DNA from: Nibricoccus aquaticus
GTDB lineage: Bacteria > Verrucomicrobiota > Verrucomicrobiia > Opitutales > Opitutaceae
Length of the DNA stretch: 64,000 bases
Direction of reading: 5' to 3'
NCBI RefSeq assembly: GCF_002310495.1
Contig: NZ_CP023344.1
Coordinates: 2,046,001-2,110,000, forward strand
The notes under the pieces are model-generated. The model did no database searches, was not told where the DNA came from, and saw only the letters and a list, made by a program, of their open reading frames with translations. The number at the start of each line of letters is the position of its first letter. Within the stretch, counting starts at the first letter, position 1. The position numbers and the translations under genes were made by a program. Shown here in pieces: positions 2,214 to 51,716 of this stretch.

Positions 2214-2568
2214 AACCCCGCCCGTTCATCCCCACCCCAAATCGCGCCACCAACCCCGATCTACCTTGCACGCCCCTGTGCCCTCCATGTCCGCGCTCCG
2301 TGTTCTCTGTGTCCCATCCCGAATCCGTCCTCCGCGTTCCGCGTCTCCGCTCTTCTGCGCTTCCGCGATAAACTCCGCCTTTCCGCTCCCTCCCTGAATC
2401 CACTGCAAACCGCCTGAGATTGCAGTTGCGTAAATGAGATTCCCCCGCGACGTTCACCACCGATTCCGGGCGTGGAGCGCGCAACTTTTTCGCGCTCCGC
2501 CCGCGATTCCAACCCTCGCAGCCCCCGACTCTTCGGTGCGCGCGAATAACCATAAAATACACATAGTC

Positions 2569-16821: not shown

Positions 16822-16886
16822 TTCGCGCTCCTTGCGGCCTTCGTGTTCAATTGCTTTCTCTCCGTGTCCTCCGCGCCTCTGCGGTG
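16822..16886 (+). repeat. Octamer-like and nonamer arrays in a convergent gap
   Basis: A degenerate TTCGCGCTC/TTGCGGCC/TTCGTGTT run (16822-16847) precedes three nonamers CTCCGTGTC, CTCCGCGCC, TCTGCGGTG (16860-16886) and GAAAT. Here the array sits between two convergent genes rather than before a start codon. Confidence 0.7.
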
Positions 16887-16919
16887 AAATATTCTGAAGC
16901 GTTCTGCGCCGACAACACG

Positions 16920-32076: not shown

Positions 32077-34137
32077 TCACAACGCCCCCGTCCCCACCTC
32101 CGCCGTCACCGCCGCGCCCGTTCCCGCCGCCTTCTCCGCCCGCACTGCCAGATGCTTCGCCAGAAACGCCTCCACCGCCGTGTACAACTCCACCTGGTTA
32201 TCGACTTTCCGAAACCCATGTCCCTCCCCGCGCTCGATCTGCTTCTCGTGCGGCACGCCGTATTTTTTGAGCTCCGCGATCAACGCTTTCGACTGCCCCA
32301 CGCTCGCGACGATGTCCCCCGTCCCATGCGCCACGAACACCGGGATCTTCACCTTGTCCACATGCTTGATCGGCGAGATTTCCTCGAACACTTCCTTCCG
32401 CTTCGCCGGGTCGCCCAGATGCCGCCGAAACACACCGTACCGCCCGCGCAAATAATCGCTCCCCCGCGCGTCCTTCATCAAGCGCTCCCAATCGAACACC
32501 CCCGCCACCGTGATCGCGCAGCGATAAAGCCCCGGCTCATGCGCCGCCCCGCTGAGCGCCAGATACCCGCCAAACGATCCGCCCATGATCGCGATGCGAT
32601 CCGCGTCGATCATCCGCGTCTTGATCACCGCCTTCACCCCGTCCGTCACATCGTCGTGCATCTTCCGAAAATCCCACATGTCCCTTTCGGGAAACCGCCA
32701 CGCATACCCCGTCGATCCGCGATAGTTCGGCTGGAAAACCGCATACCCCCGGCTCGCCAGAAACTGCACCTCTGCATCCCAGCCCCAGTTGTCGCGCACC
32801 CACGGCCCGCCATGCGGCAGCACCACCAGCGGCGCTTTGTTTTCCACCGAGGCGCCCTCCGGCAGCGTCACATACCCCTCGATCTCCCGCCCGTCGCGCG
32901 CCTTGTACGTGATCATCTGCATCGGCCGCATCCGCTTCGGATCGATCCACGGCGCCACATTCGCCACCGGCGCGAACGTCTTCGTCTCCAGCTTCACATG
33001 GAAATACGCCTCCGGCCGCACATCCGACGACACGCTGATAAAAAACTGCTTCTCCGCCCGGTCGCTCCCTAAAATTCTCACCACCTCCCCCGGAAACGCC
33101 TTCCCCAGCGCCCCCTGTATCCGCTCATACCCTTCATCAAACCACACACTCTGCGGCCCCTTCCGCTGATACTGCACCCCCAGGATGCGGTTATCCACTG
33201 GATGCCGGTAGATGCGCACACCCGTGAAATCGTACTTCTCGTCCTGAAACAACAGCTCGCCCCGCTCCCCCGTCACCGCGTTCAACCGGTGCAGCGCCCG
33301 CGGCTTCCCTTCCTCCCTCGCTCCCAGCGTCAGCAACTCCCCCGGTTCATCGCCCACCCCGATCACGGGCATCTCATCCAGATCCACCGGACTCTGCACC
33401 CACTTCGAATCCACATACCGGTGCAACGTCGCCCGCCCATCCTTCGCCGTCAGCGCGAACGCCATCTCTCCCTGCTTGTCCACGATATAGCCCAGCGCAG
33501 AGCCGCCCTTGAGATCTGGATACGTCTCCACGATGTCCGCCCGCAGGCCGTCATCCCCGTTCATGAAAAGCGACCCGTCCTTCGAATCCATGCTCCGCCG
33601 CGTGTCGATCTTCACCACCCCGCCATCCCCGCCGTCATGCTGCGAACTGTGTTTGATCCACAAGATCGCGTGCAGCGGCTTTTCCTTCGGAAACCCCACC
33701 GGCACGACCACGTTCCGCCGTTGCAACACGTACGACTGCGAAAACCGCCCCAGCTCCACCGCGAACAACCCCGTCGAGTACATCTTGTCCTGCGTGATGC
33801 TGAAAAGCAGCCGCTTGTCGTTCAGCCACTCGTACGCGTTGATGTCATAGTTGCCGCCCGCCGTCAGCCGCTCCGCCTTCTTCGTCGCCAGATCGAACGC
33901 CATCAAATCCAGCCGGTCCGCCTCGCCCGACACGATCGCCGCGAAATGCGTCCCCGCCGGATTCAGCTCCGGATTCGTGAACAACCTCGGCCGGAAAAAA
34001 TCCACCGCCGGGATCGGCTGATCCGCCGCCACCGGCGTCATCCGCTCCAACGGATTCTCCTTCTTCTTCGCCAGCGCCGGCAGCGCGAGCAGTGACAACG
34101 CAACAACAGGGGCAGCTCTCCACAGCCAGGGGTTCAT
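32077..34137 (-). CDS. Secreted S9 prolyl-oligopeptidase-family peptidase
   Basis: 686 residues with a signal peptide (ALSLLALPALA). An N-terminal beta-propeller (residues about 40-390) precedes the alpha/beta-hydrolase domain. The catalytic triad is visible as Ser in GGSFGGY, Asp in HGTGDIV and His in GEGHGF. Also visible: LVVLPHGGPWVRDNWGWDAEVQFLASRGYAVFQPNYRGSTGY. It probably cleaves short peptides in the periplasm, as dipeptidyl or oligopeptidases of family S9C do. A clear paralogue lies at 39676-41721. The sense strand is G-rich, as expected for its strand here, while the paralogue has a different composition. Confidence 0.9.
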   Translation of the reverse strand: MNPWLWRAAPVVALSLLALPALAKKKENPLERMTPVAADQPIPAVDFFRPRLFTNPELNPAGTHFAAIVSGEADRLDLMAFDLATKKAERLTAGGNYDINAYEWLNDKRLLFSITQDKMYSTGLFAVELGRFSQSYVLQRRNVVVPVGFPKEKPLHAILWIKHSSQHDGGDGGVVKIDTRRSMDSKDGSLFMNGDDGLRADIVETYPDLKGGSALGYIVDKQGEMAFALTAKDGRATLHRYVDSKWVQSPVDLDEMPVIGVGDEPGELLTLGAREEGKPRALHRLNAVTGERGELLFQDEKYDFTGVRIYRHPVDNRILGVQYQRKGPQSVWFDEGYERIQGALGKAFPGEVVRILGSDRAEKQFFISVSSDVRPEAYFHVKLETKTFAPVANVAPWIDPKRMRPMQMITYKARDGREIEGYVTLPEGASVENKAPLVVLPHGGPWVRDNWGWDAEVQFLASRGYAVFQPNYRGSTGYAWRFPERDMWDFRKMHDDVTDGVKAVIKTRMIDADRIAIMGGSFGGYLALSGAAHEPGLYRCAITVAGVFDWERLMKDARGSDYLRGRYGVFRRHLGDPAKRKEVFEEISPIKHVDKVKIPVFVAHGTGDIVASVGQSKALIAELKKYGVPHEKQIERGEGHGFRKVDNQVELYTAVEAFLAKHLAVRAEKAAGTGAAVTAEVGTGAL

Positions 34138-34199
34138 GCCGCCGATCAATCGCCGCCCGCCCGCCCCGCATCAAGCCGATACTCCGCCTCCCCGCTTCC

Positions 34200-34224
34200 T
34201 TCGCGTCCTTCGTTTCCTTCGCGA
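34200..34224 (+). repeat. Degenerate octamer array
   Basis: TTCGCGTC, CTTCGTTT, CCTTCGCG units occupy the gap between the S9 peptidase start and the ATPase stop, antisense to both genes. Confidence 0.5.
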
Positions 34225-34232
34225 GACACCCT

Positions 34233-34808
34233 TCATCCCCTCCGGCCCGCCGCGCAACGGTCGTACAACTCCCGCAACGCCTCCCGCACATTCCCCCGAT
34301 GCCGCGCGTGCAACCGCCTCGCCTCCTCCGCGCTCACCGTTTCGCCGAGCGCCCCCACCAACTCCCGCAACAACTCCGCCGTCGTTTCACATCTTCTCAA
34401 AGTTCCCAACCTCCCCGCCCGATGCGTCGTCACGAGGAGCCCGCCCGCCCGCCGCACACGGTATCGAAAAATCCGCCACGCCACGAATCCCAGCTGCTCC
34501 GCCCCATCCACCAGCACCACATCTTCCCCGCCCAGCCCCGCAAAAAACCCCGCGTCGCACACCTCCGGCAGCCGCGAAAACTCCGCACTCAGTCTCACCC
34601 AATGCGCCCGCCATCCGTCGCGCTCCAGCCGCACCGCCAGATCCTCCAGCAGCGTCGTCTTCCCCGACCCATGCGCCCCCACCAACGCCCCACGCCTCCC
34701 CAGCCGCTCCCACTTCTCCAACAACTCCGCCAACCCGCGCTCATTCAGCCGGTACCGCTCGCGCAACACACGATCCACCGCGAACGGATTATCCTTCGCC
34801 CGCACCAT
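34233..34808 (-). CDS. P-loop ATPase of unknown role
   Basis: 191 residues. Walker A GAHGSGKTTLLEDL lies near residues 41-54 and a Walker B-like EDVVLVDGAEQLGFV near 88-102, in which Asp is followed by Gly rather than Asp/Glu. Later LLVTTHRAGRLGTLRRCETTAELLRELV resembles sensor regions of small AAA/STAND-like ATPases. The N-terminus NPFAVDRVLRERYRLNERGLAELLEKWERLGRRG fits a helical lid before the P-loop. ATG 34808 is 5 bp after the preceding stop. It is the third gene of a coupled unit with a beta-sandwich protein and a DUF3592 membrane protein; the partner relation is inferred from spacing. Confidence 0.7.
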   Translation of the reverse strand: MVRAKDNPFAVDRVLRERYRLNERGLAELLEKWERLGRRGALVGAHGSGKTTLLEDLAVRLERDGWRAHWVRLSAEFSRLPEVCDAGFFAGLGGEDVVLVDGAEQLGFVAWRIFRYRVRRAGGLLVTTHRAGRLGTLRRCETTAELLRELVGALGETVSAEEARRLHARHRGNVREALRELYDRCAAGRRG

Positions 34809-34813
34809 CGCGC

Positions 34814-35242
34814 TCACCCTCCACTCCTCAACGTTTCCCCATCGCCATTCCCACCATTCGCGCCGCCGTTTTCGTGCAGCAAAATCTCCGCTCCATCCGG
34901 CGACAGCGTGAACTCCGCCCGCGCCGATCGTTCGCCCGGCTCCGCCACCAGCTCCACCGCCCAGATCAGCGAAATCAACTTCCCCGAAAAGGACCACGGC
35001 TGCATCGGCAGCGTAAACGTCAGCTCTCGCTCACCCGCTGCCTCCCTTTTCGCGATCGGCTGCGTCGCGACAATATCCACATCCTCCGTCCCCTTCCCGC
35101 GCGTGTACCAGAACAGCCGCACCTCCAGCGCCTCGGGCACGTCAGGCAGTGCCCACAGCGTCGATACGACCAGCGTTTCCCCCGGACGAAAATGCGTCCG
35201 GTTGTCCGCGATAAAAATTCCCAGTTCAGACGGCGTGCTCAT
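34814..35242 (-). CDS. Small beta-sandwich hypothetical protein
   Basis: 142 residues, no signal peptide. Alternating hydrophobic strands are visible (HFRPGETLVVSTLWALPDVPEALEVRLFWYTRGKG, RELTFTLPMQPWSFSGKLISLIWAVELVAEPGERSARAEFTLSPDG), which resemble an arrestin-like or Ig-like sandwich. Similar text (FLPGETLDLTWRFEGRAKRLKSVRFWLEGREEATYRRG) occurs in the C-terminal part of the neighbouring DUF3592 protein, so the two share a domain. It overlaps that gene by 4 bp and is 5 bp from the ATPase. Confidence 0.65.
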   Translation of the reverse strand: MSTPSELGIFIADNRTHFRPGETLVVSTLWALPDVPEALEVRLFWYTRGKGTEDVDIVATQPIAKREAAGERELTFTLPMQPWSFSGKLISLIWAVELVAEPGERSARAEFTLSPDGAEILLHENGGANGGNGDGETLRSGG

Positions 35243-36591
35243 GTTTCGACTGTTGGATTCGCCTCCGTGTGTGAGGAGGATTTCGGCGCCACGATCGCGA
35301 CAGCAAACTCCTCGCTGAGATCAGGCCACCAATCGATTTCGCCTTTCACGCGCAGCTCCCAGACCACGCGATTATTGGCCGCCTTGAACGAATGCATCAA
35401 CCGTCCCGGCAGCCGCAGCGTCGCATGACCCGCTTCCGCCGACGCCAGCCCCGAGGCCGACGCGATCTCCAGCGTCGCGAAAATCTCCTTGTCCGTCCTC
35501 GTGTCCGTCCCGCGCCGATACGTCGCCTCCTCTCGGCCTTCCAACCAGAAGCGCACCGACTTCAAACGCTTTGCCCGCCCTTCAAACCGCCAGGTCAGGT
35601 CCAGTGTTTCTCCCGGCAGGAACGCTCGCCGGTTCACCGTCAGGCGCGGCACCGGATTCGACAGCTCCATCGCGAACCGCACGATCAGTCCGATCAGGAA
35701 AAGCCCGACCGCGACAAACGGCAGCAGGAACAGCGCGAAAAACCATTCGATGAAACCGCCTCGCCCAATGTCCCTCACCACACTCACCACGAAAACCGAG
35801 ACGATCCCATTCCAGAACACCGCGAAAAACGCGATGCCCACCAGCTTGCCGACGCGCGTCGACGAAGGCACCAGCTCCATCGATCCTTCACGATCCACCG
35901 GATACGCAGAGAAATCCTCGGTCTCCGCCGGTCCGCGCGACCAGCGACTCTCCCGCGCACGCAACGCACTCCGTGAATTCGCTGGAGAGTCCTTGGATTT
36001 TCGCTGACCAAAAATCGCGAAACAAATGCCACCGCCCCCGATTAAAACGAAAACCAGCGGTATGAATCCAAATCCCCAATCGCGGATTTGGGAACGGTTG
36101 ATAACCGCCTCCGACGGATTCTTTGGGTTCACATAACAGACCGCCGCCGACCCCGGCCGGTACCGCGCCACAATCGCCTGCTTCGCTTTGCGCCCACTCG
36201 AAGAACCCGTCGTGAAATCGTACCGCGTCCCCGTAAACGTGCGTCCCTCCAGCGTGAACGTCTGCGCCTCGAACGTGTACGCATAGCTGATCTCCACGCT
36301 GTATGTGGACGAATCACCACTGTGATGGCGCACCTCGCTCGTCAGAATCCGGCAGTTAACCGGCACCCACGAACGCGCCGCCACCACGTTGATCCACGGC
36401 TTCAGCGCGAGTGCATAAGTCGCCCCCACCCCAAAGGCCAAAAATACGGTGAAGAACAACCCCAGCACCCAACGCCCCGCCGTGGTGAGTTTGCCCTTCC
36501 GCCGCCGACTCGAAATCGGCCCGTCGCCCGCCGACCGGGTCGCGTCCTCGACAGCAGGCGGGCCCGGCTGGCCCTTCACTCGGAGCTTCAT
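35239..36591 (-). CDS. DUF3592-domain membrane protein
   Basis: 450 residues. A first membrane helix lies near 42-64 (VLGLFFTVFLAFGVGATYALAL). A DUF3592 domain follows (VPVNCRILTSEVRHHSGDSSTYSVEISYAYTFEAQTFTLEGRTF...AIVARYRPGSAAVCYVNPKNPSEAVI), then a helix near 175-195, two more helices near 250-310 (KLVGIAFFAVFWNGIVSVFVV, WFFALFLLPFVAVGLFLIGLIV), and a C-terminal beta-sandwich that resembles the next gene product. DUF3592 has no known biochemical role. It is the first gene of the three-gene unit and divergent from oleD by 83 bp. Confidence 0.75.
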   Translation of the reverse strand: MKLRVKGQPGPPAVEDATRSAGDGPISSRRRKGKLTTAGRWVLGLFFTVFLAFGVGATYALALKPWINVVAARSWVPVNCRILTSEVRHHSGDSSTYSVEISYAYTFEAQTFTLEGRTFTGTRYDFTTGSSSGRKAKQAIVARYRPGSAAVCYVNPKNPSEAVINRSQIRDWGFGFIPLVFVLIGGGGICFAIFGQRKSKDSPANSRSALRARESRWSRGPAETEDFSAYPVDREGSMELVPSSTRVGKLVGIAFFAVFWNGIVSVFVVSVVRDIGRGGFIEWFFALFLLPFVAVGLFLIGLIVRFAMELSNPVPRLTVNRRAFLPGETLDLTWRFEGRAKRLKSVRFWLEGREEATYRRGTDTRTDKEIFATLEIASASGLASAEAGHATLRLPGRLMHSFKAANNRVVWELRVKGEIDWWPDLSEEFAVAIVAPKSSSHTEANPTVET

Positions 36592-36674
36592 TTACTAAAC
36601 CTAGCCAAGCCATCGCCCGCGATTCACGCCGAAAAGCGCTTCCTCCGCCGCGTCCGCTGTGTTTCGTACGTTTA

Positions 36675-37673
36675 TTGGAAAATAGTTACACACTCGTCAC
36701 CGGCGGCACCGGCTTCCTTGGGCGCCGCCTCGTCGAACGCCTCCTCACCGAAGGCCGCCGCGTCACCGTGCTCGGCCGCACCCCCGCGCCCGACCTCGCA
36801 GCCCGCGGCGTCCGCTTCATCCGCGCCTCCCTCGACGACCCCGCCGCCGTCTCCGCCGCCTGCCAAAACGTGGACACCATCTTCCACGTAGCCGCCAAAG
36901 TCGGCGTCTGGGGCCGCTACGACGATTTCTTCCGTATCAACGTCCTGGGCACACGCGCCCTCATCGACGGCGCCCGCCGCCACGGCGTGCGAAACTTCGT
37001 CCACACCAGCACCCCCAGCGTCGTGTACAACGGCCGCGCCCTCGGCAACGCCGACGAATCCCTCCCTCTCACCACCGCCTGCCCGAGTCCGTATCCGCTC
37101 ACCAAAGCCATCGCCGAACGCGAAGTCCTCGCCGCCAATTCGCCCGAACTCCGCACCGTCGCCCTCCGCCCCCACCTCATCTGGGGCGTCGGCGATCCCC
37201 ACCTCGTCCCCCGCATCCTCGCCCGCGCGCGCGCCGGCCGTCTCCGCATCGTCGGCCCCGGCACCAACCGCGTCGACATGGTCCACGTCGAAAACGCCAC
37301 CGACGCCCACCTCCTCGCCGAAAAGGCCCTCGATGGCCCCGCCGCCGGTCGCCCTTACTTCATCACCAACGGCGAACCCGTCGTCCTCTGGGACTGGATC
37401 AATCAACTCCTCACCGCCCTCGGCGAACCGCCCATCACGCGCCACATTTCCCTCGGCGCCGCATCAGCCATCGGCGCTCTCTGCGAAACCCTCTGGCGCG
37501 TTCTCACTCTCCGCAGCGAACCGCCCATGACCCGCTTCATCGCCGCCGAACTCGCCAAAGACCACTGGTTCGACCTCACCGCCGCCCGCCGCGACCTCGG
37601 CTACCAGCCACGCCTATCCATGGCCGCCGGCACCGCCGAACTCATCGCATGGTACCGTGCCCAGGCTGGCTGA
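36675..37673 (+). CDS. oleD: OleD-like 2-alkyl-3-oxoalkanoate reductase
   Basis: 332 residues, extended short-chain dehydrogenase. The NAD(P)-binding motif VTGGTGFLGRRLVERL is at residues 8-23. The active site has Ser in HTSTPSVVYNG and YxxxK in YPLTKAIAE. OleD-typical text includes FHVAAKVGVWGRYDDFFRINVLGT, LRPHLIWGVGDPHLVPRILARARAGRLRIVGPGTNRVDMVHVENATDAHLLA and YFITNGEPVVLWDWINQLL. OleD reduces the beta-keto product of OleA to the beta-hydroxy acid used by OleC. The start is TTG, giving the normal N-terminus. Separated here from oleC by 35 kb instead of clustered. Confidence 0.88.
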   Translation: MENSYTLVTGGTGFLGRRLVERLLTEGRRVTVLGRTPAPDLAARGVRFIRASLDDPAAVSAACQNVDTIFHVAAKVGVWGRYDDFFRINVLGTRALIDGARRHGVRNFVHTSTPSVVYNGRALGNADESLPLTTACPSPYPLTKAIAEREVLAANSPELRTVALRPHLIWGVGDPHLVPRILARARAGRLRIVGPGTNRVDMVHVENATDAHLLAEKALDGPAAGRPYFITNGEPVVLWDWINQLLTALGEPPITRHISLGAASAIGALCETLWRVLTLRSEPPMTRFIAAELAKDHWFDLTAARRDLGYQPRLSMAAGTAELIAWYRAQAG

Positions 37674-37736
37674 CCAAATCCGCGTCACGCACTCCTCCCT
37701 CTTTGCACCACTGACCGTCCCTCCGCCATCCGTTCT

Positions 37737-37761
37737 CATCTGTGCCATCTGTGGTTAAAAA
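37737..37761 (+). repeat. Nonamer array overlapping the start of the transporter gene
   Basis: CATCTGTGC and CATCTGTGG units are followed by TTAAAAA. Both possible GTG start codons (37742 and 37751) lie within it. The related array at 42763 also ends in GTGGTTAAAAA. Confidence 0.7.
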
Positions 37762-38269
37762 TCCGTCCTCCCTCCTCGCCCCCGCGCTCGCGATGTCCGG
37801 CATCGTGCTGCTCTCGAACATCCTCGTGCAGTACCCGATCAACCCATGGCTCACCTGGGGCGCCTTCTCGTATCCAGTCGCCTACTTCGTGACCGACGTC
37901 TGCAACCGCGCCGCCGGTCCCTCGCTCGCCCGCCGCGTCGCCTGGATCGGCTTCGGCGTCGGTCTGATTCTCTCCGCCATCCTCGCCCCACCGCGCATCG
38001 CCGCCGCGTCCGGCACCGCCTTCATCGTCTCCCAACTCCTCGACGTCGCCATCTTCAACCGCCTCCGCGCAGCGAGTTGGTGGAAAGCCCCCTTCTTCGG
38101 CTCCGCTACCGCCTCGATCATCGACACCGCCCTCTTCTTCAGCCTCGCCTTCGCCGGCACCGGCGAGAGCTGGCTCCACCTCGCCACCGGCGACCTCGCC
38201 GTGAAACTCTTCATGGCCCTCGCCCTCCTCCCTCCCTACCGCCTCCTCGTTAAGCGCCTCACGGCTTGA
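37742..38269 (+). CDS. VUT-family queuosine precursor transporter
   Basis: 175 residues, about five or six hydrophobic helices. The YhhQ/VUT pattern is clear: AMSGIVLLSNILVQYPIN, GAFSYPVAYFVTDVCNRAAGPSLARRVAWIGFGVG, SGTAFIVSQLLDVAIFNRLR, WWKAPFFGSATASIIDTALFFSLAF. E. coli YhhQ imports preQ0/preQ1 for tRNA queuosine. The length is slightly shorter than the common 220. Start: GTG 37742, or GTG 37751 in the repeat tail GTGGTTAAAAA, which exactly parallels the likely rlmD start. Confidence 0.85.
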   Translation: MPSVVKNPSSLLAPALAMSGIVLLSNILVQYPINPWLTWGAFSYPVAYFVTDVCNRAAGPSLARRVAWIGFGVGLILSAILAPPRIAAASGTAFIVSQLLDVAIFNRLRAASWWKAPFFGSATASIIDTALFFSLAFAGTGESWLHLATGDLAVKLFMALALLPPYRLLVKRLTA

Positions 38270-38309
38270 TCGCTTCCGCTGGAGATGCGACGCCCCAAAA
38301 AAACCCCGC

Positions 38310-38346
38310 TTGACACTTTCGACTTAATCGTAACTATTCGAGTTAC
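38310..38346 (+). promoter_or_regulatory. Promoter and operator of the Rrf2 regulator gene
   Basis: A consensus -35 TTGACA is at 38310-38315. An inverted repeat GTAAC-N7-GTTAC at 38330-38346 covers the expected -10 position. The identical half-sites and spacing recur before azoR, so this is likely the regulator's own binding site (autorepression). Confidence 0.65.
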
Positions 38347-38360
38347 ATTAAACCAAACCC

Positions 38361-38795
38361 ATGACTGGAAACTCAAGATTCGCCGTCAGCGTGCACGTGC
38401 TGTCGTACCTCGCCTACAAAGGCGGTGCGCAGACCACGTCGGCGGAGATTGCTTCCAGTGTGGACACCAACCCCGTCGTCATCCGCCGTCTCCTCGCCGC
38501 CTTCGTCAAAGCCCGCCTCGTCAACACCCAGAAAGGAGCCACCGGCGGCTTCTCTCTCGCGAGCGCCCCGGAAAACATCAGCCTCCTCGATATTTATCGT
38601 GCCGTGGAGCCGCAGACCGACCAGGGCCTCAGCCGCCTCGCGCCCAACCACAAATGCCCCGTCGGCGCGCGCATCGAAAACATCCTCAAAGCAACCTTCG
38701 CCAAGGCCCAGGCCAGCTTCGAAACCGAACTCGCCAGCGTTTCTATCGCAGACATCAGCCAGCAGCTCAAAGCCATCTGCACCGGCAAACACTGA
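38361..38795 (+). CDS. Rrf2-family transcriptional regulator
   Basis: 144 residues. An N-terminal winged helix has the Rrf2 pattern SRFAVSVHVLSYLAYK...TSAEIASSVDTNPVVIRRLLAAFVKARLVNTQKGATGGFSLASAPENISLLDIYRAVE. The C-terminal helices contain a single Cys in HKCPVGARIENIL. There is no CxxxxCxxxxxC cluster of the Fe-S-binding IscR/NsrR class, so it belongs with the YwnA/HypR-like members, some of which sense oxidants through cysteine. It lies 72 bp upstream of an azoreductase and shares an operator sequence with it. Confidence 0.88.
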   Translation: MTGNSRFAVSVHVLSYLAYKGGAQTTSAEIASSVDTNPVVIRRLLAAFVKARLVNTQKGATGGFSLASAPENISLLDIYRAVEPQTDQGLSRLAPNHKCPVGARIENILKATFAKAQASFETELASVSIADISQQLKAICTGKH

Positions 38796-38804
38796 TCCCT
38801 TTTT

Positions 38805-38833
38805 TTGAACCTAAATGTAACCAATTTTGTTAC
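38805..38833 (+). promoter_or_regulatory. Promoter and operator of azoR
   Basis: A -35-like TTGAAC (38805-38810) precedes the inverted repeat GTAAC-N7-GTTAC at 38817-38833, 35 bp before the azoR ATG. Half-sites and 7-bp spacer match the site before the Rrf2 gene although the spacer bases differ. Confidence 0.65.
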
Positions 38834-38867
38834 CAAAATTAAATCCACCCACCTATCCAAAAACATC

Positions 38868-39518
38868 ATGAGCACATCCAAATCCACCACTGTCTCCGTT
38901 CCCTCCCTCCTCCTCCTCGACGCCAGCCCACGCGGCGAACGTTCCCACAGCCGCAAGCTCGCCCAGGAATATCTCGCGAATTGGCAAGCCGCGCATCCCA
39001 CCGGCAACTCCGTCACCCGCGACCTCGGCCACGAACCGCCTCCCTTCGTCAACGAAGCCTGGGTCGAAGGCGCCTTCACGCCCGCCGAAGGCCACTCCAC
39101 CGCCGCCCGCGCCGCCATCCGCGTCTCCGACCGCTACGTCGACGAACTCATCGCCGCCGACGAAGTCGTCATCGCCACGCCCATCTACAACCTGACCATC
39201 CCCGCCGTCCTCAAAGCCTGGATCGACCAAATCTCCCGCTACGGCCGCACCTTCACCCGCGGCGAAAACGGTTTCGTCGGCCTGCTCGGCGGCAAACGCG
39301 TCCGTATCATCGTCAGCAGCGGCAGCGATTTCCGCCCCGCCAGTCCCGGCGGCGCCTACAACTTCCTCGACGGTTACCTGCGCGCCTTCTTCGGCTTCGT
39401 CGGCATCACCGACGTGACTTTCGTCTACGCGCACAGCCTCAACGACGGCAACCCGCTCCGGGAAACCTCGCTCGCCGAAGCCAGCGCCACCGTCCAATCC
39501 CTCGCTACCGCGGCTTGA
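38868..39518 (+). CDS. azoR: FMN-dependent NADH azoreductase
   Basis: 216 residues, cytoplasmic flavodoxin-fold oxidoreductase reducing quinones and azo compounds. Visible: LLLLDASPRGERSHSRKLAQEYLANWQAAHP (phosphate loop), VIATPIYNLTIPAVLKAWIDQISRYGRTFTRGENGFVGLLGGKRVRIIVSSGS, and LRAFFGFVGITDVTFVYAHSLN. ATG 38868 was chosen because it follows the operator and precedes strand 1; an upstream in-frame start would lie inside the promoter. It is controlled, by inference, by the adjacent Rrf2 regulator and probably induced by quinone or electrophile stress. Confidence 0.9.
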   Translation: MSTSKSTTVSVPSLLLLDASPRGERSHSRKLAQEYLANWQAAHPTGNSVTRDLGHEPPPFVNEAWVEGAFTPAEGHSTAARAAIRVSDRYVDELIAADEVVIATPIYNLTIPAVLKAWIDQISRYGRTFTRGENGFVGLLGGKRVRIIVSSGSDFRPASPGGAYNFLDGYLRAFFGFVGITDVTFVYAHSLNDGNPLRETSLAEASATVQSLATAA

Positions 39519-39536
39519 GCCGCTTGATCCCGCTCA

Positions 39537-39565
39537 CACGGCAGCGGTGGGGATCAGCTGCCGTG
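39537..39565. other. Perfect 9-bp hairpin downstream of azoR
   Basis: CACGGCAGC and GCTGCCGTG are separated by 11 nt. There is no T-tract. An alternative pairing GATCCC/GGGATC overlaps it. It may act as a weak terminator or RNA 3' end. Confidence 0.4.
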
Positions 39566-39675
39566 CACGAGTCTATAACGCGGCGCGTTCCCAAGCTCGC
39601 GCTTTTCGTGTTTACAGTGGCCGTGACACCTTCCGCCTTGCGCCCTAAAGCGGCCGTCGTCTTGCATAATGCCCC

Positions 39676-41721
39676 ATGTCTTCAATGACTCCCCTTGCCG
39701 TGGCGGCGGCAATCTTGGCTATCACCGGTTCTGCTTACGCTAAACCGCCCCACCCCCTCGACCGGATCAAACCAGTTCCCGAAACCGAGGCGGTCCCTAC
39801 GCTGGATTTTTATCGGCCTCCTTTGTTTAGAAGCCCGCAGATCAATAGCGCCGGCACCCATTTTGCCGCGCTTTTTTCTGATAACGACGACACTACCAAT
39901 CTGCTTGTTACAGATATCACGACGGGGAAACTCGAGCCCCTCGGCGCCGGCAGGAACAGCGATGTCGAATCGTTCTACTGGCTCGGCGATCGTCACCTCA
40001 TGCTATGGCTGACGAAAGAGAAGCGCTACGCCCGGGGCATGTTCGTAGCCCAGCTCTCCCGCCTCTCCGAAGCCTATCAAATCGAAGCATACAACGTTCT
40101 TCATGTTATCGGCATTCCGCGTAAAAACCCGCTTCAGCCCGTCGTCTGGTTACGTGCGAATGCGTGGGATAATGGACGCGATTACGGCGTTTTGAAGATT
40201 AACGCCAAGCAGGAGATACAGCCGGTAAATGACGGTTGGGGATTGGATAGCAAAAAATTCCCTCATGGGACCACGGCCAGCGTGATTTCCTCTTACGCTA
40301 TTCCAACGGAGGGCGTGCCTGCTGGCTATACCTGCGACAACCAAGGCGAACTCGCTTTCGCTTATACTCAGGACAAAGGCATTTTCACCATTCACCGTCT
40401 GGTGGATCAGAAATGGGTTCCTTGCCCGATCAATCTTGATGAAACCGAAATCGTCGGCAGCGGCGATGTCCCGGGCGAACTCATCGTCACAGTTCCCTCT
40501 CAGAATGGGAAACCTCGTGCGCTCCACCGCATGGACTCCGCAACTGGCCAGCTCGGCGAACTTCTTTATCAGGACGATAAATATGATCCGGATGGCGTCT
40601 CCTTGTATCGTCATCCGGTCAGCCAGAAAATCATTGGTCTGCAATTTACCCGCTCAGGTCCCCAGACCATCTGGCTCGATGAAAACTATCGAGCACTGCA
40701 AAAGCGCCTCAATGCATCGTTTCCAGTACCCAACACAGTCCTGCGTATCATCGGCAGCGATGAGGCCGAAAAACGCTTCGTCGTCGCTGCTCTCAGCGAT
40801 CGTTGCCCGGTGGCGTACTACCAGATCGACCTCGAAAAAGGGCAGCTCGGCCTGATCAAAAGCACTGCGCCATGGATCGATCCCAAGCGCATGCTGCCTA
40901 TGCAGACGATGACCTATAAAACCCGCGACGGATTTCGCATTGAGGGCTACCTGACTTTACCCGCCGGCGCCTCCAAAGAAAAACCCGCGCCATTACTCGT
41001 GCTTCCACACGGCGGCCCGCAGGCACGCGACGTTTGGGGCTTTAATTCGGAAGTACAATTTTTCGCCAGTCGCGGATACGCCGTTTTCCAGCCAAACTAT
41101 CGCGGGTCCACGAGCTATCAATGGCAGTTCTCCGGGGATGTAGGATGGGAGTTCACACGCATGCATGACGACGTCACCGATGGCGTGAAGGCACTCTTTA
41201 AAACCGGTCTGATCGATTCGCGCCGCGTTGCGATCATGGGCTGGTCATTCGGTGGCTATCTGGCGCTGGCAGGAGCTGTTCAGGAAAAAAATCTTTATCG
41301 CTGCGCTGTCGCGCTCGCCGGTGTCTATGATTGGGAGCAGGTGATTCGGGAATCGAAAAACGACGATTACTTCCGCAGCAAGCACGCGATTTTACTTCGG
41401 AAACTGGGTAACCCCAAAACCCAACGCGAGTTGTTCGAGGAAATTTCTCCATTGCGACGCGTTAGTCAGATCAAGATCCCCGTCTTTGTCGCTCACGGGA
41501 AAGACGACCTGATCGCCGATGTCGCTCAGTCCAAGCGTCTCGTTACGGAATTAGAACGCTACAACATTCCCTTCGAGAAACATTTACTCAGCGGTGAAGG
41601 CCACGGGTTCTCGTACTACAAAAATCGCGTTGAAATCGCTGAGGCGATTGAAGCGTTTCTCGCTAAAAACCTAACACCACTCCCTGCGGAGCTCGCGTCT
41701 GTAGCCGGGTCCATTCCCTGA
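39676..41721 (+). CDS. Secreted S9 prolyl-oligopeptidase-family peptidase, second copy
   Basis: 681 residues with a signal peptide (PLAVAAAILAITGSAYA). The layout matches the peptidase at 32077: propeller, then alpha/beta-hydrolase with Ser in GWSFGGY, Asp in HGKDDLI and His in GEGHGF. Long identical segments (FASRGYAVFQPNYRGSTSY, KIPVFVAHG) show that they are paralogues. It differs from its neighbours in being less GC-rich and much less biased to C in third codon positions, which suggests a separate history such as horizontal acquisition. It stands alone between azoR and a convergent methyltransferase gene. Confidence 0.9.
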   Translation: MSSMTPLAVAAAILAITGSAYAKPPHPLDRIKPVPETEAVPTLDFYRPPLFRSPQINSAGTHFAALFSDNDDTTNLLVTDITTGKLEPLGAGRNSDVESFYWLGDRHLMLWLTKEKRYARGMFVAQLSRLSEAYQIEAYNVLHVIGIPRKNPLQPVVWLRANAWDNGRDYGVLKINAKQEIQPVNDGWGLDSKKFPHGTTASVISSYAIPTEGVPAGYTCDNQGELAFAYTQDKGIFTIHRLVDQKWVPCPINLDETEIVGSGDVPGELIVTVPSQNGKPRALHRMDSATGQLGELLYQDDKYDPDGVSLYRHPVSQKIIGLQFTRSGPQTIWLDENYRALQKRLNASFPVPNTVLRIIGSDEAEKRFVVAALSDRCPVAYYQIDLEKGQLGLIKSTAPWIDPKRMLPMQTMTYKTRDGFRIEGYLTLPAGASKEKPAPLLVLPHGGPQARDVWGFNSEVQFFASRGYAVFQPNYRGSTSYQWQFSGDVGWEFTRMHDDVTDGVKALFKTGLIDSRRVAIMGWSFGGYLALAGAVQEKNLYRCAVALAGVYDWEQVIRESKNDDYFRSKHAILLRKLGNPKTQRELFEEISPLRRVSQIKIPVFVAHGKDDLIADVAQSKRLVTELERYNIPFEKHLLSGEGHGFSYYKNRVEIAEAIEAFLAKNLTPLPAELASVAGSIP

Positions 41722-41747
41722 GTGCGCAATCGTTACCGGCAGGCACA

Positions 41748-42548
41748 TTACCCCCGCTGCCGCACCGCCTCGAACAGCGTGATGATCGTCGCCATCGCCA
41801 CGTTCAGCGAATCCGCCTGACCCGCCATCGGGATGCGCACCTGCGCGTCACTCTCCTTCAGCCAGAAATCGCTGAGCCCGTACTGCTCGCTCCCCATCAC
41901 GATCGCCACCGGCCCGCGCAGATCGGTGTTGGTGTGCAGCTCCTTCGCCGCCGGCGTTGTGGCCACAGCACGGATACCGCGTTCCTTTAGCCACGCGCGC
42001 ACCGGCCCACTCTCCGCCACGACCACCGGCACTGAAAACAAAACGCCCGTCGATGCCCGCACCACATTGGGGTTAAACAAATCCGTCACCGGATCGCACA
42101 CGATCAGCGCATCCACGCCCGCCGCATCCGCACTCCGCAAAATCGTCCCGAGATTCCCCGGCTTCTCGATCGCCTCGACCACCAGGAGAAACGGCTGCGG
42201 CTTCAGCGCCAGATCCTCCAGCCCGCGCTTCCACTGCGGTGCCACCGCCAGCAACCCATCCGGCCGCTCCCGATAAGCCACTTTCGCAAAAGCCTCCTTC
42301 GACAACTCAAACGCCTGCGCCCCCGCCGCCTGCGCTTCAGCGATCAACGCGGGCTCATTCTCCCCCAGAAACCACTCCGGCGAAAAATAAATCTCCTGCA
42401 GCTTCACGCCTTTCTCCAACGCCCTTCGCACCTCGCGATAACCCTCCACAAGAAACACGCCCGCCTCATCGCGCGGACGCCGGTCACGCAGCTTCACGAG
42501 CTGCTTCACACGCGGATTCTGGAGACTGGTGATTTTTTCGACAAACAT
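41748..42548 (-). CDS. SpoU-family RNA 2'-O-methyltransferase
   Basis: 266 residues. An N-terminal substrate-binding part (ITSLQNPRVKQLVKLRDRRPRDEAGVFLVEGYREVRRALEKG) is followed by the trefoil-knot SPOUT domain with the three SpoU motifs: EAIEKPGNLGTILRSADAAG, IVMGSEQYGLS and IPMAGQADSLNVAMA. It methylates ribose in rRNA or tRNA using SAM; the exact site cannot be read from sequence. It is divergent from the rRNA methyltransferase gene rlmD across a 235-bp gap that carries repeats pointing at each start. Confidence 0.9.
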   Translation of the reverse strand: MFVEKITSLQNPRVKQLVKLRDRRPRDEAGVFLVEGYREVRRALEKGVKLQEIYFSPEWFLGENEPALIAEAQAAGAQAFELSKEAFAKVAYRERPDGLLAVAPQWKRGLEDLALKPQPFLLVVEAIEKPGNLGTILRSADAAGVDALIVCDPVTDLFNPNVVRASTGVLFSVPVVVAESGPVRAWLKERGIRAVATTPAAKELHTNTDLRGPVAIVMGSEQYGLSDFWLKESDAQVRIPMAGQADSLNVAMATIITLFEAVRQRG

Positions 42549-42560
42549 CGGAGAGAAAGA

Positions 42561-42590
42561 ACCACAGAGACACAGAGCGCACAGAGACGC
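42561..42590 (-). repeat. TGTG nonamer array upstream of SpoU gene
   Basis: On the minus strand, units ending in CTCTGTG repeat three times and finish with TGTGGTTC, 12 bp before the ATG. It is the mirror image of the array in front of rlmD. Confidence 0.75.
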
Positions 42591-42638
42591 TAGCCGGAGT
42601 TTTCTGACTCACTCACGCTGAGATGCTGCAGGGCTTTC

Positions 42639-42662
42639 TTCGCGCCTTCGCGTCTTTGCGTG
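42639..42662 (+). repeat. Octamer array upstream of rlmD
   Basis: Three units, TTCGCGCC, TTCGCGTC, TTTGCGTG. A partial extra copy, CCTTTGCGTGAGCC, follows near 42685. Confidence 0.8.
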
Positions 42663-42762
42663 AACCCCTCCGATCCTTGCTGCTCCTTTGCGTGAGCCTT
42701 TTCAGCATTCGCTTCCTCCACACCCCGCCGCCCCGACTTTGCGCTTCCTCTTTCCGCCGCCC

Positions 42763-42789
42763 CTCTGTGTCCTCTGTGCCTCTGTGGTT
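42763..42789 (+). repeat. TGTG nonamer array containing the rlmD start codon
   Basis: CTCTGTGTC, CTCTGTGCC and TCTGTGGTT are followed by AAAAAG. The probable rlmD GTG start is bases 42784-42786, inside the third unit. Confidence 0.8.
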
Positions 42790-44079
42790 AAAAAGAAAAA
42801 ATTTAACGACCATCCCTTCGCGTATCACGCCGAGATCGAGCTCGAGATCGCCACGCTGACCAACCTCGGCGTCGGCCTCGGCCGCGTTCCTCTCCGCGAT
42901 CCCGCCACCGGCGAAGATACGCAATGGGTCGTCATGGTCCCCTTCGCGCTCCCCGGCGAACGCGTCCGCGCCCGCGCCTTCCGCAACCACAAGAACTTCA
43001 CCGAAGCCGATCTCGTCGAAGTCCTCACACCGTCGCCCCACCGCGTCGATCCGCTCTGCCCGCTCTTCGGCCGCTGCGGCGGCTGCCAGTACCAAAATTT
43101 CACCTACGCCGAGCAGCTCGCCTGGAAACGCCGCCAGGTCGAAGAGCTCCTCAAGTACATGGCCGGCCTCGAATTCCTCGTCGCCCCCGTCATCGGCTCG
43201 CCCAAGGAGTATGGCTACCGCTCCAAAATCACCCCGCACTTCAGCCCGCCGCGCGATCCCGCCGCTCTCTCAACGCTCAACCCTCAACTCTCAGCGTCCG
43301 CATTCCCCATCGGCTTTCTCCGCCAGGGCACCCGCTTCGGCCTCCTCGACGTCCCGCAATGCCCGATCGCGACCGATGCCATCAACGAAAAGCTCCCCGA
43401 GGTCCGCGCCAAAACCCACGCCCGCGCCGCCGCCGGTGAGTTCAAACGCGATTCCACCCTCCTCCTCCGCCACGCCCAGGAAGGCGTCATCACCGAGTAC
43501 GACGCCGTCATCCACGAACAAGTCGGCGATCTGAAACTCCACTTCCTCGCCCGCGACTTTTTCCAGAACAACCCCTTCATCCTCCCCGCGTTCACCTCGT
43601 ACGTCCGCCAGCAGGCCGCTGCCTCCGGCGCGCGTTTCCTCGTCGACGCCTACTGCGGTTCCGGACTCTTCGCCCTCACCGCCGCACCTTCGTTTGAAAA
43701 AGTCGCCGGCGTAGAACTCAGCGCCACCTCGATCAACTTCGCCCGCGAAAACGCCACCGCCAACGGCATCGCCAACGCCACCTTCCTCGCCGGCGACGCC
43801 TCCGCCATCTTCGCCGGCCTCACCTTTCCCCCGCGCGACACCGTCATCGTCATCGATCCACCGCGCAAAGGTTGCGACGAAAACTTCCTCAACCAGCTCT
43901 TCGCCTTCGGCCCCCGCGCCGTCGTGTACGTCTCCTGCGACCCCGCCACACAGATGCGTGACCTCAAGCACTTCACCGCGCACGGCTACACACTCAGCGC
44001 CGTGCAGCCCTTCGACCTCTTCCCCCAGACACGCCACCTCGAGTGCGTCGTCACCCTGCACGCCCCCGAAAAGCTGTAG
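42784..44079 (+). CDS. rlmD: 23S rRNA m5U methyltransferase, RlmD/RumA type
   Basis: 431 residues. Methylates a uracil C5 in 23S rRNA (U1939 in E. coli RlmD) with SAM. A [4Fe-4S] cysteine group is visible in CPLFGRCGGCQYQ with a later CPIA. The SAM-binding and catalytic region includes DAYCGSGLFALTA, VIDPPRKGCDENF and the nucleophile motif VSCDPATQMRDLKHF. An N-terminal TRAM-like domain is present (IATLTNLGVGLGR...VPFALPGERVRARAF). Start GTG 42784 lies in the tail of a dispersed repeat. An insertion near residues 160-173, just before FPIGFLRQG, is encoded by heptamer repeats and looks foreign to the family. Confidence 0.88.
   Translation: MVKKKKFNDHPFAYHAEIELEIATLTNLGVGLGRVPLRDPATGEDTQWVVMVPFALPGERVRARAFRNHKNFTEADLVEVLTPSPHRVDPLCPLFGRCGGCQYQNFTYAEQLAWKRRQVEELLKYMAGLEFLVAPVIGSPKEYGYRSKITPHFSPPRDPAALSTLNPQLSASAFPIGFLRQGTRFGLLDVPQCPIATDAINEKLPEVRAKTHARAAAGEFKRDSTLLLRHAQEGVITEYDAVIHEQVGDLKLHFLARDFFQNNPFILPAFTSYVRQQAAASGARFLVDAYCGSGLFALTAAPSFEKVAGVELSATSINFARENATANGIANATFLAGDASAIFAGLTFPPRDTVIVIDPPRKGCDENFLNQLFAFGPRAVVYVSCDPATQMRDLKHFTAHGYTLSAVQPFDLFPQTRHLECVVTLHAPEKL
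43270..43297 (+). repeat. Heptamer array inside rlmD
   Basis: TCAACGC, TCAACCC, TCAACTC and a partial TCAGCGT lie in frame, adding Ser/Leu/Thr/Asn-type residues between the start of the methyltransferase fold and FPIGFLRQG. The unit is the same as at 37-64 in oleC. Confidence 0.8.
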
Positions 44080-44206
44080 ACGGGGTGCCCTTACCCCGCA
44101 TCTCCGCTGCGCCAGCACGCCCAATCTGGGCAATCTCCCTCAGCACGCGGCAGTTGCCTTGATCAGGCCGCTCGCTAAAAAGTCGTGACCGCTTTCCGCC
44201 GCGCTC

Positions 44207-46249
44207 ATGATACCCCTTAGTTCCGAGCCTGCTTCATCCCCCCGCCAACACGAGCCAGACGCCGACGTCTACCGTCTGCTCGCCGAACAAGCCGGCATGG
44301 TCGTTTACGACTATGACATCGCCTCCGGCCGCATCGCCTGGTCCGGCGCTACCGCCTCCCTTCTCGGCTACACCCTCGAAGAATTTCAACTCATCGACGT
44401 CACCTGCTGGGAGGAAATGATCCACCCCGACGACCGTGCCGAAGCCGTCACCCTGCTAACCTCCGCCATCTCTTCCCAAAAAGCCTACAACACCGTTTAC
44501 CGCTTCCTCCACAAAAACGGTCACCACATCCACCTCCACGACCGAGGCAGCTTTGTCATCGCCAGCGGCCGTCACCGACTCATCGGCTCGATGATCGACG
44601 TCTCCGACAGCCGCCTGCGCGCCCGCGCCCTCACCGGCCTGCTTGAGCGCGTAGTCGTTTCCCCAGGACGCGCCTTCTTCGATCAGCTCGCCCAGGAACT
44701 CTACCGCACGCTCGACGCCACCCGCGTCTTCGTCGGCCGCCTCTCCGACGATGCCGACACCATGCTCCCCCTCGCCGTCTGCCACCGCGGCGAAGCGTCG
44801 GTGATCGACCCCTACAGACTCGCCGGCAGCCCATCTGCCGCCGTCCTCCACCGCGGCGACGGCCTCCTCTGCTGCTGGGGTAACGCCGCCGAGATTCTCC
44901 CCGCCCACAACGCCATGTTCGCCAGCTGGAGCGTCAACACCTACGTCGGCTGCGCCCTCACCTCCCCCACCGGCTACCGCATCGGCGTCCTCAGCGCCAT
45001 GTTCGCCCGCCCCCCCGCCAAGCGCGAAGCCGTCATCGCCATCCTCCAGCTCTTCGCCGCCCGAGCCGCCGCCGAGATCGAACGCCGCGAAACCGAGTCC
45101 GCCCTCCGCTCCAGCGAAGCCCGCTTCCGCTCCCTCTCCGAAAGCTCCCCCGTCGGCGTTTACCAGTTCGACCCCCACGGCAACTGCACCTACGTCAACA
45201 AACGCTGGTCCGAGATCACCGGCATCTCCTACAAAGACGCCCTCCACAAAGGCTGGCGCGAAAAACTCCCCCCCGACGAACTCCAGCGCCTCCTGCTCGC
45301 GTGGCAGACCTTCACCAGCGGCAACGGCGAGTTCTCGCACAAACTCCGCTTCGCCCACCCAGCCGACGGCTCCACGCGCTGGATACAGTTCCACGCCCGC
45401 CGCCTCCTCGCCCCGGGCGGCGAACTCGGCGGCTACGTCGGCACCATCGACGACATCACCGCTGAGATGGAGGCCGAGGCCGAGATCCGCCGCCTCAACG
45501 CCTCCCTCGAAGAACGCGTCGCCGAGCGCACCGCCCAGCTCGCCGCCGCCAACGCCGAGCTCGAGGCCTTCAGCTACTCCGTCTCCCACGACCTCCGCAG
45601 CCCCCTGCGCGCCATCGACGGCTTCTCCCGCGCCATCGCCGAAGACTACGACGCCGCCCTCGATGATAACGGCCGCGACTACCTCCGCCGCATCCGCGAC
45701 GCCTCCCAGCGCATGGCCCAGCTCATCGACGACCTCCTCCGCCTCTCCCGCGCCACCCGCACCCAGATGCGCGTCGACACCATCGACCTCGCCGCCCTCG
45801 CCCAAAACGTCGCCACCGAACTTCGCCAGGCGGATACACCCGGCCGCCACGTCGAGTTCACCTGCCCCTCCGCTCTCCCCGCCAAGGTTGACCGCGACCT
45901 CATGCGCATCGTCCTCGATAACCTCCTCGGCAACGCCTGGAAATACACCCGCCGCCAGCCCTCCCCGAAAATCGAGTTTTCTGTCGCCAACGCCCCCGCC
46001 GATTCCCCAGATCAAGGCTGCCTCGTTTATACGATCCGGGACAACGGGGCCGGTTTCGACATGAAGTATGCGGGAAAACTCTTTGCTCCATTTCAGCGAT
46101 TGCACACCCGTGCCGAATTTGAAGGCACCGGCATCGGCCTCGCCACCGTCCGCCGCATCATCACACGCCACGGCGGCCGCGTCTGGGCCGAGTCCGCCCT
46201 GGATCTGGGCACCCAAATCCACTTCACGCTCAAAACGCCCGCATCCTAA
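44207..46249 (+). CDS. PAS-GAF-PAS sensor histidine kinase
   Basis: 680 residues, no membrane segments, so cytoplasmic sensing. PAS 1 (about 20-135: VYDYDIASGRIAWSGATASLLGYTLEEF), GAF (about 150-300), PAS 2 (about 305-425: FRSLSESSPVGVYQFDPHGNCTYVNKRWSEITG), coiled linker, HisKA with SYSVSHDLRSPLRAIDGFSRAIAEDY, then ATPase with N box DNLLGNAWKYT and G boxes DNGAGF and GTGIGLATV. The kinase core and the small response regulator downstream resemble bacteriophytochrome-type pairs, but no biliben-binding Cys region is evident. First of three consecutive signalling genes. Confidence 0.92.
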   Translation: MIPLSSEPASSPRQHEPDADVYRLLAEQAGMVVYDYDIASGRIAWSGATASLLGYTLEEFQLIDVTCWEEMIHPDDRAEAVTLLTSAISSQKAYNTVYRFLHKNGHHIHLHDRGSFVIASGRHRLIGSMIDVSDSRLRARALTGLLERVVVSPGRAFFDQLAQELYRTLDATRVFVGRLSDDADTMLPLAVCHRGEASVIDPYRLAGSPSAAVLHRGDGLLCCWGNAAEILPAHNAMFASWSVNTYVGCALTSPTGYRIGVLSAMFARPPAKREAVIAILQLFAARAAAEIERRETESALRSSEARFRSLSESSPVGVYQFDPHGNCTYVNKRWSEITGISYKDALHKGWREKLPPDELQRLLLAWQTFTSGNGEFSHKLRFAHPADGSTRWIQFHARRLLAPGGELGGYVGTIDDITAEMEAEAEIRRLNASLEERVAERTAQLAAANAELEAFSYSVSHDLRSPLRAIDGFSRAIAEDYDAALDDNGRDYLRRIRDASQRMAQLIDDLLRLSRATRTQMRVDTIDLAALAQNVATELRQADTPGRHVEFTCPSALPAKVDRDLMRIVLDNLLGNAWKYTRRQPSPKIEFSVANAPADSPDQGCLVYTIRDNGAGFDMKYAGKLFAPFQRLHTRAEFEGTGIGLATVRRIITRHGGRVWAESALDLGTQIHFTLKTPAS

Positions 46250-50336: not shown

Positions 50337-50350
50337 CGTGTCCTACGCGC

Positions 50351-50701
50351 TCACTTCTTCCCCAGAAACCCGCCGATCAGGTCGAGCACGGCGCGACGCG
50401 AATCGATCCCGGATTTCACCGCCGCATTGTGCGCGTCGAGAATCCACTGCGGCGGCGCTTCGTCGGCGATGAATGTCCGCACGTCGCTGTCGAAATCGAT
50501 GACCGTCGCGAGCGCGACCTTGAGCTGACCGCTGCCAGCCGTCGCCTTCGTCATGAGTTTGTCCCACTCGAGATCGTCTTTGACGATGCCCGTGATGTTG
50601 CCGCGGAAGGTGATGACTTCGAGTGAACTGAGGTCGACGATCGCGTTCTTGATGGAAGCGACCGCGCCCTCGATGCCGGTGAGTGATTCGTTTTTAGCCA
50701 T
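50351..50701 (-). CDS. Hypothetical protein, partner of the 523-residue protein
   Basis: 116 residues, soluble, no signal peptide. It begins MAKNESLTGIEGAVASIKNAIVDLSSLEVITFRGNITG and ends in LDLIGGFLGKK. The mix of helices and strands is reminiscent of small phage-tail or injection-system accessory proteins, but no motif supports this. The downstream gene starts 14 bp later, so the two are probably one operon. Function unknown. Confidence 0.6.
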   Translation of the reverse strand: MAKNESLTGIEGAVASIKNAIVDLSSLEVITFRGNITGIVKDDLEWDKLMTKATAGSGQLKVALATVIDFDSDVRTFIADEAPPQWILDAHNAAVKSGIDSRRAVLDLIGGFLGKK

Positions 50702-50794
50702 GGAAGGATGGAGATTAAGCTGCGTGACAACGCATAGCCTGTCTTCGCGAAAAGTCAGCTGGTTGTTACGAAGACCTCACCCGCTCGATCACGC

Positions 50795-51676: not shown

Positions 51677-51685
51677 GGTGGAGGC

Positions 51686-51716
51686 AAAAAGGGCGGCTGG
51701 TCGAAACCAGCCGCCC
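51686..51716 (-). terminator. Intrinsic terminator of dnaN
   Basis: On the minus strand a perfect 10-bp stem (51691-51700 with 51707-51716) and 6-nt loop are followed by five T residues, 30 bp after the dnaN stop. Confidence 0.88.

Follow-up and report, generated by a model that had tools for sequence, protein, structure and literature searches.

Short tandem arrays of CTCTGTG-type units lie ahead of two genes, rlmD and a transporter gene, in the stretch of the Nibricoccus aquaticus chromosome analysed here (the window, 64,000 nucleotides, positions 2046001-2110000 of a single contig of 4,730,447 bases, hereafter the own genome or G000). A reading of the sequence alone had proposed that a GTG inside each array is the start codon of the gene behind it, and that the repeat therefore carries translation-start information with it. 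The locus thereby raises the question of what these arrays are and whether they supply starts in general. We find that the TGTG arrays are probably the ends of a small element, the complete form of which consists of inverted arrays flanking one gene of the GxxExxY family, and that a start at an array end is likely at the two genes named, with no sign of a general property.

Inverted arrays around GxxExxY genes

The arrays share a unit consensus of CRCNRAG plus 1-3 bases and an outer tip that reads AACC.../...GGTT. The own genome has two GxxExxY genes (at 343904 and 4665562, outside the window), each flanked by inverted arrays of this build, and one of the two loci, L093, carries the GGTTAAAA...ATTCCG tail that the scattered copies have. 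For comparison we collected 112 GxxExxY loci (individual loci are labelled Lxxx) from genomes of the same family (labelled G0xx), from the own genome and from the best 80 contigs of a longer list that spans many phyla and archaea; 106 of them had sufficient flank, 31 from the family and the own genome and 75 from the best 80 contigs. The inverted arms scored above the 99th percentile of shuffles in 89 of these 106 loci, namely in 30 of the 31 family and own loci and in 59 of the 75 distant ones, with two of three archaeal loci above that level. The median arm score was 18.5, as compared with 9.0 for arms swapped between loci and 8.0 for shuffles, and 27% of the swapped pairs exceeded the percentile. 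The units themselves vary from locus to locus (CACAGAG, CACGGAG, CGCAGAG, CACGAAG, CGCGGAG and others), and the left and right arms agree better within a locus than swapped arms do. Across the whole set the unit type tracks the protein tree, with 26 changes against a shuffled mean of 38.8. In addition, by a mechanical count, the left arm of 55 of 84 loci either contains the first in-frame start of the element's gene or comes within 20 nt of it.

The number of arrays in a genome depends on the presence of the gene. Among 150 family genomes, the 129 with a GxxExxY gene had a mean of 13.2 array ends and the 21 without it 0.52 (p 3e-11), in a census that counts each gene's own two arms, leaves the relatedness of the genomes uncorrected and scores G147 as gene-less as the sole genome missing from the GxxExxY listing; the reversed control gave 0.33 ends per genome. 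No array end at all was found in 5 of the 129 gene-bearing and in 14 of the 21 gene-less genomes, the latter having three at most. Copies without a gene also occur as inverted pairs: G050 has nine of these, with 53-93 bp between the two starts, and they account for 18 of its 27 matches. An inverted partner stands upstream, that is on the inner side, of 9 of 49 lagging-strand ends in the own genome and downstream of one (a count that left out 20 opposite-strand ends, many of which were judged by eye to be background), and in stretches of the family genomes it stands on the inner side of 31 of 58 ends and on the other side of nine.

Three side observations concern such elements in relatives. Two single ends in G012 (L325 and L326), 930 bp apart, have roughly 75 bp of array and flank in common and then diverge, and look like a copied single end. 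GxxExxY elements of different genera and with different units (L103-L106, L109, L110 and L120) stand directly behind the stop of an amidase-type gene that is gatA-like by eye and apparently the same in each case; the site would be a hotspot, or else the insertion would be old and its units changed on both sides. Lastly, genes of TIGR02436, a four-helix-bundle family that we take to be the 23S rRNA intervening-sequence protein family, are likewise surrounded by inverted short arrays in the family genomes (L124-L153; most of the 28 of 30 loci that were printed, by eye and unscored). Those elements differ in gene family and in units, which are about 7 bp long (GTTGAGA, GAGTAGC, GGAGTCA). The own genome has arrays of GTTGAGA and AATGACC, and a profile search gave no TIGR02436 match in it; a search with PF05635 matched nothing anywhere, controls included, and is hence alone no proof of absence.

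A predicted nuclease and a possible DNA-level constraint on the arms

Both own-genome genes bracketed by arrays are plain members of TIGR04256/PF13366 (PDDEXK_3), at 147.1 and 134.8 bits against a cut-off of 35, which is their only NCBIfam match; the family names are silent on repeats and on mobility. The fold, predicted at high confidence (predicted local distance difference test score 96.7), is best matched in the PDB by 4ic1 (SSO0001), presumably a Cas4 protein, at Z 9.9 and a Foldseek E of 1.3e-3, and further structural matches at Z 8 and below may reflect the common fold alone. The invariant D62 and K74 and the nearly invariant E72 in A2 correspond to the D...ExK residues of PD-(D/E)XK. 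According to this model GxxExxY has a minimal PD-(D/E)XK nuclease fold, and nuclease activity is predicted. A sequence search of the PDB gave a single match, at E 0.46, and PADLOC matched neither of the two own-genome genes.

As inverted arms, the arrays could also act at the level of RNA, with an arm hairpin in the transcript that controls how an enclosed or neighbouring gene is translated or processed, much as the inverted arms of 23S rRNA intervening sequences fold as a long transcript hairpin. The arms at 42560 and 42763 of the window do pair as a long stem (z -4.23), and 41 of 84 loci have a Shine-Dalgarno-like GGAG or GAGG ahead of the gene start. Selection on an RNA stem would, however, favour G.U-compatible changes, and among the arm mismatches of the 89 loci these number 102 against 114 A.C changes (p 0.45). 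We therefore rejected an RNA stem kept by selection, since the G.U changes show no excess over A.C. Moreover, for 40 of the 49 lagging-strand ends in the own genome the roughly 285 bp upstream contain no recognisable partner, and Rfam covariance models matched nothing in the window from 34000 to 46000 with E values of up to 1 allowed, so that we regard an RNA device as unlikely. The arms look as if they were kept, or homogenised, as DNA.

Copies and strand orientation in the own genome

Over the whole own genome, CTCTGTGNCCTCTGTGGTTAAA with at most three mismatches has 38 matches, while the reversed control has none, and many copies share sequence beyond the units (..CATCCNTNCCCATCTGTGCCATCTGTGGTTAAAAATTCCG.., a consensus by eye). 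Arrays of the same build and of other units stand beside them, namely CATTCGCG, CTTCGCG, CTCCGCG and CATCAGTG; the pattern CTTTGCG.. gave one match, equal to its reversed control (1), and CTTCGTG.. none.

The TGTG strand is the lagging strand in 34 of 35 strict own-genome array ends, with origin and terminus placed by GC skew, which reaches about 0.35 in 20-kb stretches and switches sign near 2.1 and 4.45 Mb. In a sample of 60 evenly spaced 20-kb stretches plus the window, the same holds for 66 of 78 F1 hits, whereas called genes split 491:433 (the calls come from a simple in-house script, no published gene finder, and carry its start-site error along). Other array families of the own genome are equally strand-strict (AATGACC 48:1, AATCCTGTCC 20:0, TCCGTGTCGTCC 18:0, with overlapping hits unmerged), and arrays of the TTCGCG type are weakly oriented (26:14). 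In G019, 8 of 10 array ends below 2.5 Mb and 3 of 18 above it are on the plus strand (p 0.003, with the split chosen post hoc). No strand preference was seen for gene-bearing elements in relatives, at 10:10 for GxxExxY and 10:10 for TIGR02436, as judged by local 20-kb skew, which in several stretches is near zero.

Strand-biased mutation might account for this orientation: pairs would insert either way, the arm that clashes with the strand composition would decay, and oriented single ends would remain. The very strong skew fits this, as does the low number of recognisable partners in the own genome as compared with its relatives (9/49 and 31/58, see above). However, G019 has a weaker local skew and is still oriented by chromosome half, and three of its ends at 2.66-2.70 Mb oppose the local skew. 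We hold decay to be a somewhat unlikely explanation, and one that competes only over the origin of the orientation, not over the identity of the element.

The lagging strand is also where the Y1 elements IS608 and ISDra2 act, according to the available text of PMC6006769. It is thus conceivable that resident Y1 (RAYT-type) transposases acting on the lagging-strand template mobilise the arrays, with GxxExxY as a passenger. The own genome does encode three PF01797 proteins (L327-L329), and the flank of L329 has a short array-like stretch in which CGCGGATGG is repeated. Yet the partial flanks of the three Y1 genes show, by eye, palindromes of their own and not gene-bracketing inverted arrays, and in the 150 family genomes the array number tracks the GxxExxY gene, PF01797 being uncounted in the relatives. 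We consider mobilisation by Y1 enzymes improbable.

Comparison with RAYT/REP and a proposed mechanism

In RAYT/REP systems, as far as the available text of PMC2817692 and PMC3116915 goes, one gene lies between inverted repeats, gene-less doublets and singlets are scattered, and the number of repeats depends on the presence of the gene, tenfold on average. The arrays resemble this system (and REPIN) in each respect: a single gene is bracketed by inverted copies, the gene-less copies between genes are partly inverted doublets and partly singlets, and the repeat number is gene-dependent, here about 25-fold with own arms included and relatedness uncorrected. The system works like RAYT/REP, yet it fails two of its defining features, as the enzyme has a PD-(D/E)XK and not a Y1/HUH fold and the repeat is built of short units in direct repetition and not as a palindrome.

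Given that the arrangement equals that of RAYT/REP in its inverted repeats, its doublets and singlets and a number tied to the gene, we propose a REPIN-like spread of the array copies as non-autonomous elements. Nicks at the arrays would be made by the GxxExxY nuclease or by a partner that targets single-stranded DNA of the lagging strand, and the orientation would arise either by insertion into the lagging-strand template or by decay of the disfavoured arm. By analogy, we infer that the GxxExxY nuclease may be what mobilises the arrays. The broadest form of this proposal, which we put forward tentatively and with less than even confidence, makes GxxExxY the enzyme that mobilises an ancient family of array-ended elements shared across domains. 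It would be a minimal, Cas4-like nuclease with short tandem units as its recognition sites, and thus a second counterpart of RAYT/REPIN, evolved independently and active at replication forks. Oriented arrays between the genes of bacteria and archaea would be its product, and because the ends read outward GTG-GTT-AAA, gene starts would occasionally have been rewritten.

Several points weigh against the arrays being ends of a GxxExxY element, or against its mobility. The association of gene and array number counts the gene's own arms and takes no account of relatedness; once two ends per gene copy are subtracted, the median falls to -1, and it is the 24 of 129 genomes with more than 10 ends left that carry the excess. 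The unit of the scattered arrays matches the arms of the sampled resident GxxExxY loci at 0.30, as compared with a permuted mean of 0.31 (18 genomes, in most of which only part of the gene copies were read, both being read in the own genome), a result that also has to be set against the RAYT/REP likeness. The commonest own-genome unit, TCTGTG, is absent from the arms of both resident loci. Among the distant loci alone, the unit type barely tracks the tree (21 changes against 23.3, with 27 of 300 shuffles as low). Foldseek gave no match below E 0.001. The gene-bearing GxxExxY elements of relatives are unoriented, unlike the single ends of the own genome. Finally, no movement was seen. The one junction compared between genera, that of the transporter, occurs with and without the array and speaks for the element.

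Start codons at array ends

At rlmD and at the transporter gene, comparison with orthologues indicates that the last GTG of the array is most likely the start codon, in agreement with the sequence-only reading of a start inside the array. The frames opened by these codons run for 172 codons from GTG 37751 and for 431 codons from GTG 42784. The transporter orthologues of G017 and G014 have the same epimerase-type gene upstream, an ATG start and an array-free junction (stop, 20 bp and ATG in G017; an ATGA overlap in G014), whereas the own genome has a 77-bp array-ended spacer; the ATG of these array-free orthologues falls at the position equivalent to the array GTG, at which the own-genome frame begins. 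As for rlmD, GTG 42784 is the sole start that is well placed: the next 150 nt downstream contain no start codon, and two in-frame TTGs lie upstream. The gene was matched in all 29 genomes searched, own included, some matches being less than full length. G016, G014, G017 and G004 belong to other genera, and there too rlmD has as its best start a GTG that lies inside or at a short-unit array, one of different sequence; in G016, G017 and G004 the same array holds further in-frame GTGs. The start of the SpoU gene is the opposite array tip in G014 and a GTG roughly a dozen bases outside that tip in G016 and G017. The best rlmD start is also a GTG in G002, G013 and G006, there away from any array tip, and so the GTG of rlmD may predate the array, which would merely have met it. 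Since the outermost bases read outward GTG GTT AAA, an array end can come to provide the start codon of a gene whose front it occupies.

As a general property, translation-start information in the repeat did not stand. We scored, in frames 0/1/2, the array ends at which the terminal GTG opens at least 60 codons. In the strict scan the counts were 14/15/7 of 53 ends for the own genome, 18/21/15 of 79 for the family loci and 10/10/11 of 56 for loci of other groups. Two looser scans gave 17/19/9 of 62 and 25/25/12 of 76 in the own genome, 28/23/22 of 96 (two own-genome loci among these) and 40/31/31 of 117 in the family, and 13/12/12 of 64 and 13/13/12 of 67 in other groups, so that a lean to frame 0 is restricted to the loose family sets. 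The frame 2 count is depressed because GGTTAA contains TAA. Of the 78 sampled F1 hits, 56 lie in spacers, 19 in called genes and 3 at edges, and those in spacers are divided into 21 tandem-sense, 14 tandem-antisense, 10 divergent and 11 convergent, which is roughly proportional to the expectation from spacer length (about 19, 18, 12 and 7). We therefore rejected the arrays as a general start-codon module, as array-end GTGs show no frame bias and arrays also occupy convergent and antisense spacers. In spite of the rlmD and transporter starts and of the rlmD and SpoU cases in other genera, arrays that exist as translation-start modules are a very remote prospect.

Arrays and neighbouring genes of the window

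The sequence-only reading had placed CTCTGTG-type arrays ending in GTGGTTAAAAA at 37737 and 42763, a mirror copy near the SpoU ATG and a related array at 16860, and all of these are present (Table 1), the first beginning at 37738, the mirror copy 11 bp from the ATG, and the last looser in sequence. The spoU-rlmD pair of arms is a gene-less inverted element, and the transporter array, which shares the consensus of other own-genome copies, is a single right end. The array at 16860 occupies a spacer between convergent genes and starts no gene in sense. Isolated nonamers with one mismatch are not above chance in the window (19 against 22.8 expected), unlike array ends with the GGTTAAAAA tail, for which the enrichment holds: CTCTGTGGTTAAAAA with at most three mismatches occurs four times against 0.46 expected, a count reached in 1 of 100 shuffles. 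A plasmid collection queried with 42540-42800 of the window returned two records, both partial matches, and a tRNA scan of the window found none. The GC skew minimum lies near 51 kb of the window, beside the DNA polymerase III beta gene (51747-52871), and the region 50000-52900 appears to contain the replication origin region.

Table 1. Arrays, genes and likely start codons in the window (coordinates count from its first base).
Feature	Position	Strand	Remarks
Related array CTCCGTGTTCTCTGTGTC	2296..2313	+	Divergent spacer
Looser relative (CTCCGTG, CTCCGCG, CTCTGCGGTGAAA)	16860..16890	+	Reads CTCCGTGTC CTCCGCGC CTCTGCGGTGAAA
Single array end, two ATCTGTG units then GTTAAAAA	37738..37761	+	Epimerase-transporter spacer; reads ATCTGTGCC ATCTGTG GTTAAAAA
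Vut_1 family transporter gene	37751..38269	+	PF02592
Tip GTG, likely transporter start (alternative 37742)	37751..37753	+	From orthologue N-termini
SpoU-type RNA methylase gene, ATG start beside left arm	41748..42548	-	PF00588; first base of ATG 42548
Inverted (left) arm of gene-less element	42560..42587	-	Reads AACCACAGAG ACACAGAGCG CACAGAGA
Second-type array, CTTCGCG/CTTTGCG units ending GTGAAC	42634..42665	+	Between both arms
Right arm, three CTCTGTG units then GTTAAAAA	42763..42794	+	Reads CTCTGTGTC CTCTGTGC CTCTGTG GTTAAAAA
rlmD-type (uracil-5) methyltransferase gene	42784..44079	+	PF05958; name rlmD from the sequence-only reading
Tip GTG, likely rlmD start	42784..42786	+	Orthologue comparison, start scan

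Significance

Short repeats between genes are also known from cyanobacteria as STRR and small dispersed repeats, and the arrays are like these in being short and intergenic. To our knowledge, the cyanobacterial repeats have no link to a bracketed nuclease gene. Literature searches on GxxExxY, PF13366, PDDEXK_3, TIGR04256 and the array sequences yielded no paper that ties arrays to the family; PMC8934634, in its available text, merely names the GxxExxY domain. An earlier listing of such arrays without a link to the gene is possible, and papers on Geobacter and Pelobacter, as far as their available text goes, mention 'multicopy nucleotide sequences' in supplements.

GxxExxY genes of many phyla, and of archaea as well, come with such arrays, to which the literature searched assigns no gene. 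The tie between the two provides a testable role for an uncharacterised protein family and a likely source for a widespread repeat, and the array ends at rlmD and the transporter illustrate one likely route by which start codons are replaced in evolution. Together with the predicted fold of the protein, it adds a candidate repeat-gene system beside RAYT/REP, with an unrelated enzyme.

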